Source of the DNA: Pseudomonas hormoni
Lineage (GTDB): Bacteria; Pseudomonadota; Gammaproteobacteria; Pseudomonadales; Pseudomonadaceae
Length of the DNA: 64,000 nt
Direction of reading: 5' to 3'
Assembly (NCBI RefSeq): GCF_018502625.1
Contig: NZ_CP075566.1
Coordinates: 3,582,001 to 3,646,000 of the forward strand
Shown: piece by piece, positions 2,376-5,037 of the stretch
How the letters are laid out: each line of letters opens with the position of its first letter
How positions within the stretch are numbered: the first letter of the stretch is position 1
Notes under the pieces: model-generated
What the model was told of the DNA's origin: nothing
The model's input: only the letters and a program-made list of their open reading frames with translations
Database searches by the model: none
Position numbers and translations under genes: made by a program

Positions 2376-2897
2376 ATGAACGCCAGACAACTGATTTGCC
2401 TTGCCGCTTTGTTCGCCGCAGTGCCTGCGGCCTTTGCCCAGAACGGTCTGCCCGACACCATCAAGGTTCCGGACGGGCACAAGGTCGCCATGGAAACCAC
2501 CGGCGTTGGCGAAATCACCTACGAATGCCGTGACAAGGCCAACGCGGCCGGCCAGACCGAATGGGTGTTTGTCGGGCCCAAGGCTGTGCTCAATGATCGC
2601 GCTGGCAAACAAGTCGGCACTTACTACGGCCCCCCGGCGACCTGGCAAGCGAAGGATGGCTCGAAAGTCACCGGCACCCAGCTGGCAGTCGCACCGTCGA
2701 GCCCGGGCAATCTGCCCTATCAACTGGTCAAGGCCAATCCGGCCGAGGGCAAAGGTGCGATGAGCGGCGTCAGTTACATCCAGCGTGTTGCCCTCAAAGG
2801 GGGCGTCGCCCCGAGCGCCGAGTGCACGGCGGCTAACAAGGGCACGCAGGAAGTGGTGAAGTATCAGGCGGATTACATTTTCTGGGCCGCGAGTTAA
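2376..2897 (+). CDS. DUF3455 secreted protein
   Basis: A 173-residue protein with a clean Sec signal peptide (cleavage predicted after AFA near residue 21). The mature part matches the DUF3455 pattern: an early VPDGHKVAMETTGVG strand, a YECR segment, a PPATW(Q)AKDGSKVTG segment and a C-terminal YQADYIFW ending. Two cysteines in the mature part could pair in the periplasm. DUF3455 proteins are periplasmic or extracellular and of unknown function. A good GGAGA site precedes the ATG. The gene stands alone: the lipoprotein gene is 128 bases upstream and a REPIN follows. Confidence 0.85.
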   Translation: MNARQLICLAALFAAVPAAFAQNGLPDTIKVPDGHKVAMETTGVGEITYECRDKANAAGQTEWVFVGPKAVLNDRAGKQVGTYYGPPATWQAKDGSKVTGTQLAVAPSSPGNLPYQLVKANPAEGKGAMSGVSYIQRVALKGGVAPSAECTAANKGTQEVVKYQADYIFWAAS

Positions 2898-2918
2898 CCG
2901 TCAAGACCACCGAAACCT

Positions 2919-3011
2919 TGTAGGAGTGAGGCTTGCCCGCGAAGGCGTCTAAAAATCCAACAAGGATGTCGGATGACACAATGCCTTCGCGGGCAAGCCT
3001 CTCTCCTACAG
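2919..3011. repeat. REPIN (GAGGCTTGCCCGCGAA type)
   Basis: The arms TGTAGGAGTGAGGCTTGCCC and GGGCAAGCCTCTCTCCTACA are inverted around an approximately 40-base loop. The arms carry compensating oddities (AGTGAGG against CTCTCT), so the palindrome is imperfect. It separates the DUF3455 gene from the sigma factor gene. Confidence 0.9.
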
Positions 3012-3068
3012 GGATGTGGATTGTTTGCTAGATTGCATTCGGACTGCCCCACATAACGGCTGAGATCT

Positions 3069-3596
3069 GTGTCCTTGCCCGAACCCATTTTCGACTATGA
3101 AGCTCACCTCGCCGCCTGTGGCCGGGGCGAGCGTCAGGCCCTGCGCGATTTGTATGTGCAGGAGAGTCCGCGGCTGCTCGGCGTGGCCAGGCGCCTGGTG
3201 CGCGACACCGCGCTGGCCGAAGACATCGTCCACGATGCGTTCCTCAAGATCTGGGCCGGCGCTGCAGGTTTCGACCCGACGCGGGGGTCGGCACGGGGCT
3301 GGATGTTCAGCGTGACCCGGCATCTGGCGCTCAACTTCATCCGTGACAACAGCCGCGAAATCCAGGGCGATATCGACGTGCAGAACGACGCTGAAACCTT
3401 CGATGCCCAGGTGCACTCCTCACGCATTCATCTGTGCCTGGAGCAGTTGGATCCTGCGCGGCGCAGCTGCATCCTGCACGCCTACGTCGACGGTTATTCT
3501 CACGCACAAATTTCACGCAAACTCGGCACCCCGCTGGGCACCGTCAAAGCGTGGATCAAAAGGAGCCTGACAGCATTGCGGGAGTGCATGGGATGA
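3069..3596 (+). CDS. ECF-type RNA polymerase sigma factor
   Basis: A 175-residue group IV sigma factor. Region 2 (about 25-95) has the HDAFLKIW and RGWMFSVTRHLALNFIRD core-binding and -10 recognition segments; region 4 (about 120-172) has the YSHAQISRKLGTPLGTVKAW helix-turn-helix. It lacks regions 1 and 3, as ECF factors do. The start is a GTG at 3069; no strong Shine-Dalgarno is visible. Its stop overlaps the start of the anti-sigma gene (ATGA, 4 bases), so the two are translationally coupled. There is no TonB receptor beside it, so this is not a FecI-type iron factor. The target regulon is unknown; the 13-residue-repeat gene just downstream is a candidate. Confidence 0.92.
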   Translation: MSLPEPIFDYEAHLAACGRGERQALRDLYVQESPRLLGVARRLVRDTALAEDIVHDAFLKIWAGAAGFDPTRGSARGWMFSVTRHLALNFIRDNSREIQGDIDVQNDAETFDAQVHSSRIHLCLEQLDPARRSCILHAYVDGYSHAQISRKLGTPLGTVKAWIKRSLTALRECMG

Positions 3597-4303
3597 CGAT
3601 CAGACCTGCGGATGAGACCCCGGAGCAACTCGCCGAACTGGCCAGCGAGTATGTGTTGGGTACGCTCTCGGACGAACGACGCCGCGCGGTACAGCAACGC
3701 CTGCCCGACGATGCCGAACTGCGCACGGCGGTCGATACCTGGGAGCGTCGCTTGTTGGGCCTGACTGACTTTGCCCAACCCGAGACGCCCTCGCCCGCGC
3801 TGTGGCAACGCATCGAGCGCAGCGTCAACGCCCTGACCCGCCAGCCAACTCTCGAACCGTCATCCTGGTGGAATCGCTTAGCGCTGTGGCGCGGGCTCGC
3901 CGTTGCGGGGCTGGCGGCCACGTTGCTGCTCGGCACGCTGCTGCTCACGCAAACCACGGTCAAGCCGACCTATCTGGTGGTGCTGGTCGCGCCACAAGAC
4001 AAATCGCCGGGCTGGGTGATTTCGGCCAGCAATCCCAGGGAAATCCAGTTGATTCCGCTGGGGGTCGCCCAGGTTCCGGAAGACAAGGCACTGGAGTTCT
4101 GGACCAAGGCCGAAGGCTGGCAAGGGCCGGTGTCGCTGGGCTTGGTCAAACCGGGGCAAACGCTGTCGGTGCCTGTGGATAAACTGCCGCCGCTGCAACC
4201 CGACCAATTGTTCGAACTGACCCTTGAAAACCGCACCGGCTCGCCGATCGGCAAGCCTACCGGGCCGATTCAGTTCATCGGGCGGGCGGTGAAGGTGATC
4301 TGA
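3593..4303 (+). CDS. RskA-family anti-sigma factor
   Basis: A 236-residue membrane protein starting at the ATG that overlaps the sigma gene stop. The cytoplasmic N-terminal part (about 10-60) has the ELASEYVLGTLSDERR helix typical of anti-sigma domains but no zinc-binding His-Cys-Cys set. One transmembrane helix (about 101-119) follows, then a periplasmic RskA-type C-terminal domain. It should hold the ECF factor inactive at the inner membrane until a periplasmic signal arrives. Several in-frame upstream codons give a longer frame overlapping the sigma gene, but the coupled ATG fits operon structure better. Confidence 0.88.
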   Translation: MTIRPADETPEQLAELASEYVLGTLSDERRRAVQQRLPDDAELRTAVDTWERRLLGLTDFAQPETPSPALWQRIERSVNALTRQPTLEPSSWWNRLALWRGLAVAGLAATLLLGTLLLTQTTVKPTYLVVLVAPQDKSPGWVISASNPREIQLIPLGVAQVPEDKALEFWTKAEGWQGPVSLGLVKPGQTLSVPVDKLPPLQPDQLFELTLENRTGSPIGKPTGPIQFIGRAVKVI

Positions 4304-4497
4304 AAGTCACGCGCCAGCCACCCCCCGGTCAACTGCCCTCACCCAGCTGACGAATAAAACATCACGCTCACGCACGGGGAGTTGCCCGGTCCATCATTGC
4401 CGTCGATGTTCACCATCACGTCAATGAAGTTCTCATAAAAAATCCGCGGCGTAACATCAGCTCCATACCAAACAACTACACCCCGGAGCACACCATC

Positions 4498-4977
4498 ATG
4501 AAACGCCCACTCTTCCTCAGCATCGCTTTCTCGGTTTTTGCAGTTAACGCTTTTGCCGCTTCTTCCGCTCACCCGGTTGTCGCTGAAGGCGGCTCGGATC
4601 GTCTGATTGAAAGCCGTGTGGCTGAAGGTGGTTCGGATCGTCTGATCGAAAACCGCGTTGCCGAAGGTGGCTCGGATCGTCTGATCGAAAACCGCGTTGC
4701 CGAAGGTGGCTCCGACCGTCTGATCGAAAACCGCGTTGCCGAAGGTGGCTCTGATCGTCTGATCGAAAACCGCGTCGCTGAAGGTGGCTCGGATCGTCTG
4801 ATCGAAAACCGCGTTGCCGAAGGTGGCTCGGATCGTCTGATCGAAAACCGCGTAGCAGAAGGTGGTTCGGATCGTCTGATCGAAAACCGCGTAGCAGAAG
4901 GTGGCTCGGATCGTCTGATCGAAAACCGCGTAGCAGAAGGTGGTTCGGATCGTCTGATCGAAAGCCGTGCAGTGTGA
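4498..4977 (+). CDS. secreted 13-residue tandem-repeat protein
   Basis: A 159-residue protein: a Sec signal peptide (cleavage likely after AFA, residue 20), a short linker to residue 27, then exactly ten head-to-tail copies of VAEGGSDRLIENR (nt 4579-4968) and a two-residue tail. Copies 2-9 are identical as protein; copies 1 and 10 have Ser for Asn at position 12. At DNA level the 39-bp units differ at synonymous sites, except copies 3 and 7, which are identical. I recall similar VAEGGSDR-repeat proteins in pseudomonads carrying loose names such as phage infection protein, but I do not rely on that. The even copy ends (Arg) would let a trypsin-like protease release identical 13-mers; this is inference. 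The gene follows the sigma/anti-sigma pair and ends at a strong terminator. Confidence 0.85.
   Translation: MKRPLFLSIAFSVFAVNAFAASSAHPVVAEGGSDRLIESRVAEGGSDRLIENRVAEGGSDRLIENRVAEGGSDRLIENRVAEGGSDRLIENRVAEGGSDRLIENRVAEGGSDRLIENRVAEGGSDRLIENRVAEGGSDRLIENRVAEGGSDRLIESRAV
4579..4968 (+). repeat. ten 39-bp in-frame tandem repeats
   Basis: Ten units of 39 bp encode VAEGGSDRLIENR or its ESR variant. The variable codons are at Val1, Ala2, Gly4-5, Ser6 and Asp7; the block CGTCTGATCGAA is almost invariant. Units 8-10 share GTAGCAGAAGGTGG and units 3, 4, 5 and 7 share GTTGCCGAAGGTGGC, which points to local duplication by slippage or unequal exchange. Confidence 0.97.
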
Positions 4978-5004
4978 ATGAATGGCTTTACCGCAAGACT
5001 CGAC

Positions 5005-5037
5005 AAAAAACCCGGCCTCATCAGCCGGGTTTTTTTA
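5005..5037. terminator. bidirectional rho-independent terminator
   Basis: The stem CCCGGC/GCCGGG is flanked by A6 on the left and T7 on the right, so it works for the repeat-protein gene on + and for the DUF1615 gene on -. Confidence 0.93.

Follow-up and report, generated by a model that had tools for sequence, protein, structure and literature searches.

A family of exported tandem-repeat proteins in Pseudomonadaceae with a putative MexT-type promoter box

Judged by sequence comparison, the gene at positions 4498..4977 (plus strand) of the window, by which we mean the whole 64,000-nucleotide stretch of Pseudomonas hormoni DNA that was analysed, belongs to a family of exported tandem-repeat proteins that occurs in the Pseudomonadaceae. 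We consider it very probable both that this family has been correctly recognised and that the gene is under the control of a MexT-type LysR regulator. Our overall best explanation, to which we assign a probability of roughly 0.6, is that the product is a disordered, stress-induced, multivalent envelope protein that is exported under MexT-type control.

The repeat gene and its product

The open reading frame starts with ATG and encodes 159 amino acids, and both the translation and the units were read directly from it. A preliminary description of this DNA had proposed a signal peptide followed by ten repeated units, which the translation of the open reading frame bears out. Residues 1-20 (MKRPLFLSIAFSVFAVNAFA, 4498..4557, plus strand) have, by eye, the basic-hydrophobic-AXA pattern of a Sec signal, here ending in AFA, and the relatives are similar in this respect. 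Ten 13-residue units of the form VAEGGSDRLIE[S/N]R, each of 39 bp, occupy 4579..4968 (plus strand; Tandem Repeats Finder and translation), and the protein consists of little but units after its signal peptide. At the default score of Tandem Repeats Finder, this array is the only one in the window, with 9.8 copies and 93% matches. Units 2-9 are all VAEGGSDRLIENR, and units 1 and 10 end in ESR. Every unit contains two arginines, R8 and R13, and is free of Cys, His and Met. The mature chain, calculated with a cut one residue past the AFA site, has a mass of about 14.7 kDa and a pI of 4.7; it has no Cys or Met, and its single His lies outside the units.

It had also been claimed that copies 2-9 are identical as protein while differing in their codons. 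This is the case: the codons for V1, A2, G5, S6 and D7 vary across these units. The identity of the protein units is therefore not simply a consequence of recent copying of DNA.

Several candidate signals flank the gene on the plus strand. A putative MexT-type LysR box, ATCATTGCCGTCGATGTTCACCAT, lies at 4393..4416, 105 bp before the ATG. A probable -10 element, TAACAT (4452..4457), was recognised by eye and is also found in many upstream sequences of the family; a sigma-70 scan gave no promoter at this element. The ribosome binding site GGAG (4485..4488) likewise recurs, by eye, in many upstream sequences of the family. A probable terminator, CCCGGC-CTCATCA-GCCGGG with flanking A/T runs (5004..5036), can be aligned in four paralogues of the same genome; it was read from the sequence and is missing from the list produced by a scan. 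On the minus strand, a candidate frame of 150 amino acids (4569-5021) is open across the array.

Distribution of the family

In a sample of the genus, 142 of 149 genomes have a match at an E-value of 1e-5 or better, with up to 10 matches per genome, some of which may overlap inside a single gene. At the level of the family, matches at E 0.001 occur in 47 of 119 sampled genomes and in 8 of 19 sampled genera. We fetched loci containing 87 genes for the analysis of promoters; one of these (L170) starts one codon early, and the other 86 were used for unit counts. The preliminary description had asked whether the number of repeats varies among homologues, and it does, from 4 to 13 units per gene among these 86. 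The modal period is 13 residues in 69 of them and 14-22 residues in the other 17. The P. nitroreducens group, represented by five genomes, has two adjacent repeat genes with units of 18-22 residues.

The genome of P. hormoni itself has three close paralogues of the gene (L002, L003 and L004) at distant sites, with 9, 7 and 7 units, and three looser relatives (L005, L006 and L007). The four close copies are alignable from about 105 bp before the ATG to about 60 bp past the stop codon, terminator included, and beyond these flanks no clear likeness is seen by eye. This arrangement suggests that whole transcription units may have been copied within the genome. As a separate observation, the looser relative in L005, a protein with mixed units (1432-1818), and a small protein encoded nearby (2787-3071) have a common C-terminal tail, VAENR[AP]EFGSKYQRY.

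We also considered a phage origin of the repeat gene. A search of phage sequences gave no match to the protein, and the only plasmid record is a hypothetical protein of P. asturiensis pCC1524 with 51.5% identity (L203, 3911-4297); on these grounds a phage origin was rejected.

The promoter box and candidate regulators

Most genes of the family have, about 105 bp before the ATG, a box of the form ATCA-N5-GTCGAT-N4-ACYAT, which we take to be a longer form of the MexT site. In the window this long form has one match, at 4393-4416, with 0.04 expected. A looser version of it was found in 44 of the 87 family genes and in none of the shuffled sequences. A shorter form, ATYA-N7-YGAT, which is how the MexT nod box is printed in the available text of one source (PMC11432991), is present 85-125 bp upstream in 52 of the 87 genes, compared to a mean of 0.28 and a maximum of 2 in 100 shuffles. 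It is important to consider that the promoters of the family are homologous, so these counts are not independent of one another. Among the 35 genes that are missing the strict short box, 24 retain the second half of the long box as [CT][GA]AT-N4-ACYAT and 11 have neither; the latter include L005, L007 and, from each of the five P. nitroreducens pairs, the second gene. The first gene of these pairs has the box in all five genomes.

We then considered where else such sites occur. With at most one mismatch, the long pattern has 40 sites in 9 genomes, and a reversed control has none. Both perfect matches to ATCAN5GTCGATN4ACYAT in the P. hormoni genome precede repeat genes. Allowing two mismatches gives 51 sites in this genome (control: 1), many of which are apparently unrelated, and 16 of the 30 that we inspected fall within probable coding regions. 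When 30 loci with box sites were checked, a repeat gene was found just downstream in 18 and none was found in 12. In two genomes a box without mismatch precedes an ArsR-MFS gene pair (the protein families were checked in one of them), and ArsR-MFS is the gene order of the MexT-controlled pyeRM-xenB, as described in the available part of PMC7950407. Box-like sites away from repeat genes were also seen by eye in L105, L087, L125, L133, L134 and others. In L105, L137 and L138 (about 1200-1811), such a site lies near a conserved small ORF of about 76-84 amino acids that resembles a membrane protein, which is possibly a further member of the regulon. Four genomes (L087, L125, L133 and L135, about position 1501) have a box-like site close to a group of short ORFs.

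The P. hormoni genome has a MexT-like regulator. A LysR gene (G000:C1:2318331-2319215) lies near genes for a MexE equivalog, which scores 755 bits against a cut-off of 714, and for an RND permease; a single small ORF separates it from mexE, and it is divergent from a zinc-dehydrogenase gene. Given this position, we presume that this gene is mexT; none of the NCBIfam LysR models scored over its cut-off for it. Two ATYA-N7-YGAT sites precede mexE in this genome, one of them within ATCATTCCGAATGATAGTTACCTT, of which 15 of 24 bases are identical to the box in the window; this promoter has the short nod box only, and neither site matches the long form. A total of six MexT-like LysR genes are present, with 52-86% identity to the query from L134 (those named are L205, L208 and L212), and therefore the regulator of the repeat gene may not be MexT itself. 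We infer that MexT or a close paralogue would bind the predicted box at 4393-4416.

Conservation of the unit and the question of peptide release

The preliminary description attributed the uniformity of the peptide to selection or recurrent homogenisation, and both of these appear to be active. Between the units of the gene in the window, pN/pS is 0.025 (pN 0.0078, pS 0.309). In a first count, restricted to genes that have five or more units of 13 residues, within-gene pN/pS was below 1 in all 52 genes, with a median of 0.137; the pattern used to find units in the first counts loosely prescribes the core residues and is therefore biased towards conservation of the core. A recount therefore took fixed 13-residue steps without selecting for the core, skipping 9 genes that were out of register, and pN/pS was again below 1 in all 47 genes that it covered (median 0.135, largest 0.497). 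The unit of the repeat protein is under purifying selection. The same recount gave 106 distinct in-register 13-mers from 60 genes, in which G5 is present in 106, A2, D7 and R8 in 99 each, E3 in 94 and R13 in 86, and positions 10-12 are freer than the core. Units differ between species, with the core retained.

Concerted evolution was assessed at 17 loci linked to DUF1615, with the first and last units removed and L062 excluded due to masked bases. The five-residue tail of the unit is equal in 68% (0.682) of pairs of units within a gene, versus 19% (0.187) of pairs between orthologous loci, a contrast that was reached in 0 of 500 permutations. Synonymous codon difference is also lower within genes (0.234 versus 0.368; 0 of 200 permutations). 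Units thus evolve in concert within a gene. It appears that exchange of DNA homogenises the units and that selection then preserves the peptide while codons drift. The combination of strong selection on the protein, species-specific concerted change and diverse codons makes this family a clean natural case for studying the uniformity of repeats.

It might seem that such a gene encodes a precursor of many peptide copies, and the preliminary description had indeed argued that an Arg-specific protease would cut the protein into near-identical 13-mers. In that form the argument does not hold, since besides the arginine at its end each unit contains an internal one that is better conserved: cutting in silico at arginine gives VAEGGSDR and LIENR, and no 13-mer. 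Moreover, 65 of 86 modal units end in arginine and 21 do not, the latter including genes built mostly of VAADGSDRLQGNT or LAEGGADRLQERG. Identical peptide copies do follow the signal peptide, and a conserved processing site between them was not found.

A broader version of the proposal is that the chain is cut at R8, R13 or both, and that VAEGGSDR, LIENR or the 13-mer is a species-specific signal released when a MexT-type switch is on. The unit-level purifying selection (52 of 52 genes, and 47 of 47 in the recount), the homogenised species-specific tails, the frequency of both arginines among the distinct in-register 13-mers and the scarcity of anything but units past the signal peptide would all be expected of such a precursor, and 8 of 53 loci have a TonB-dependent receptor gene in the vicinity. 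Against it are the 21 modal units without a terminal arginine, the fact that cutting at both arginines would yield no uniform 13-mer, the failure to notice any protease among the 22 largest clusters of neighbouring genes at the 53 loci, the finding that no neighbour is common to all sites, and a literature search in which the motif AEGGSDR was found in no paper. We regard a multi-copy peptide precursor as unlikely. A specific form of it is a species-specific broadcast of peptides by Gram-negative bacteria in response to a redox trigger, in which a MexT-type switch and proteolysis at both arginines would yield a stress or kin signal; this is a speculative idea with a small chance of being correct. 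Equally speculative is the corresponding division of the unit into a half that would be common to the group (VAEGGSDR) and a variable, species-specific half (LIENR), with the copies kept identical by homogenisation and purifying selection.

Structure and possible function

The explanation that we favour, that of a disordered multivalent envelope protein, can be set out as a series of steps. A MexT-type regulator would bind the predicted promoter box, and thiol, electrophile or other redox stress would cause it to switch the repeat gene on, as with mexEF. The protein would then pass via Sec to the periplasm or the outside, where it would be an unstructured chain. Its near-identical units would each present the conserved A-x-x-G-x-D-R core. 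In the weakest step, the chain may act as a multivalent binder or a sacrificial protectant in the envelope, with a capacity that might depend on how many units and gene copies there are. A role as envelope protectant or binder, rather than as a donor of peptides, is a tentative proposal that has somewhat less than an even chance of being correct. A consideration against a binder is that a simple one would have no obvious need for units that are mutually identical.

The product might instead be a structural or surface protein, i.e., a solenoid or a component of a matrix, whose identical units stack or self-associate. The modal period of 13 in 69 of 86 genes fits this idea, as does the AlphaFold2 model, in which seven of the ten units have a short strand at RLI. 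However, AlphaFold2 predicts no confident fold (mean pLDDT 36.8, pTM 0.16), a PDB sequence search at E 0.01 found no relative, no Pfam domain was matched at E up to 1, and the modal period is 14-22 in 17 genes. We consider a structural role improbable.

Another candidate is a periplasmic metal-tolerance protein resembling PtrA, whose units would bind copper or zinc. The NCBIfam model NF041599 (PtrA N-terminal domain) matches the whole protein at 89.9 bits, the signal peptide with two units at 32.1 bits and the signal peptide with one unit at 22.6 bits (E 7.6e-5), where the cut-off is 31. Since the score with a single unit is below the cut-off, the score of the whole protein has been raised by repetition, and for this reason the protein was not filed under PtrA; without repetition it does not exceed the cut-off. 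A class-wide search with the model gave 3 weak matches, with 0 of 185 over the cut-off; it carries no information, since even the copies in the P. hormoni genome escaped it. In the available portions of the literature, PtrA is described as a periplasmic protein of copper tolerance or copper storage (PMC11195947, PMC8872213), although its function is itself disputed, with binding of ExsA set against periplasmic copper tolerance (PMC7744410). The units have no Cys, His or Met, and the box that is common to genes of the family is of the MexT type. A metal-binding protein of this kind is, in our opinion, a rather poor prospect.

Genomic neighbourhood and the adjacent ECF sigma factor

Genes for an ECF sigma factor and an RskA-type anti-sigma factor lie directly upstream of the repeat gene, as the preliminary description had reported, adding that the pair has no other known target. 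We compared the neighbours in the window with the fetched flanks of 40 loci (L038-L077). DUF1615 is a neighbour in 17 of these; the ECF pair is present in 8 of the 17 and was not found in 9. DUF3455 is present in all 8 loci with the ECF pair and in none of the other 32, so DUF3455, the ECF sigma factor and the anti-sigma factor (window 2376-4303) look like one dispensable block. The paralogues L002-L004 have a promoter region in common with the gene in the window; their 1.5-kb flanks gave no match to an ECF or anti-sigma factor. Despite adjacency in the window and at 8 orthologous loci, it is therefore very improbable that the repeat gene is a dedicated target of the ECF sigma factor; we rejected this form of control, the pair looks incidental, and the element common to most genes of the family is instead the MexT-like LysR-type box.

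Other neighbours were clustered at 53 loci, using three neighbours per side and a home-made gene caller, and the 22 largest clusters were considered. The recurrent sites are that of DUF1615, to which this clustering assigns 16 loci, and that of an AsmA-like gene with ferritin and TetR genes. ABC ATPases occur in 6 of the loci and MATE proteins in 5, and seven of the 8 loci with a TonB-dependent receptor are at the DUF1615 site. By eye, the TonB receptor, MATE and ABC genes track particular chromosomal sites, and no single cluster spans all of the sites. Examples of TonB-dependent receptor genes are L046 3252-5453 and L043 4811-6964, the latter directly upstream of the repeat gene at another site.

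Comparison with known systems

In the multi-copy pheromone precursors of fungi, a signal peptide is followed by a short peptide that is repeated identically many times. The repeat protein shares with them this arrangement of a signal peptide and many identical short units. It differs in that the arginine at the end of the unit is not kept across the family, and in that no protease was noticed beside the repeat genes in the 22 largest neighbour clusters.

PtrA (PA2808) is, like the repeat protein, a small exported protein of Pseudomonas, and the signal peptide and first unit align with positions 6-30 of NF041599. In contrast, ptrA is controlled by CopR and CzcR and linked to copper and zinc, according to the available text of the three sources (PMC11195947, PMC8872213, PMC7744410), whereas the gene in the window has a MexT-type box. 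The phrases "PtrA N-terminal domain-containing" and "co-regulatory protein PtrA" were absent from the literature searched.

The closest comparison is with PA4881 of Pseudomonas aeruginosa. According to the accessible part of PMC3557286, the product of PA4881 is a tandem repeat protein controlled by MexT, and PA2206, another LysR protein, also binds the PA4881 promoter; within the literature searched, as far as the texts were available, this was the only description of the product. The same part of the paper reports that a PA4881 mutant did not have increased sensitivity to hydrogen peroxide on disks, which argues against a simple peroxide protectant. Among the rows listed in the available part of PMC12607905, deletion of mexT lowers PA4881 by a log2 value of -6.5, the largest fall, and PA4882 by -2.0; besides mexEF-oprN, the strongest falls among these rows are those of unnamed genes, including PA4881, PA3229, PA1942 and PA4623. 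The portion of PMC3848899 that was available also lists a strong decrease of PA4881 in mutants of parS and parR.

By analogy, we infer that the gene in the window is akin to PA4881, on the basis of gene neighbourhood, box and the printed phrase rather than of sequence comparison. In the P. nitroreducens group, the genes with units of the VAENG- or VADNG- type carry the box (the first gene of each pair), and a ferritin-like gene lies beside the repeat gene in one locus of this group (L174). We take PA4880 to be a bacterioferritin, which would tie the P. nitroreducens loci to PA4881. A published primer, used as a probe for P. aeruginosa, gave no match in 25 genomes of the genus of P. nitroreducens. 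The likeness is that of a tandem-repeat protein with MexT control there and of repeats that are exported, as judged by eye from the signal peptide, with a predicted MexT-type box here. The differences are that units in the P. nitroreducens group have 18-22 residues and the unit in the window has 13, and that the gene in the window lies elsewhere, next to DUF1615, and is one of several close copies. Several paralogues are present in this genome, and the proposed kinship with PA4881 raises the question of what is exported in bulk when MexT is on. If the analogy holds, then PA4881, which is the top unnamed gene among those listed for the mexT deletion in the available text, would be linked to a widespread group of exported repeat proteins whose genes mostly have the same box.
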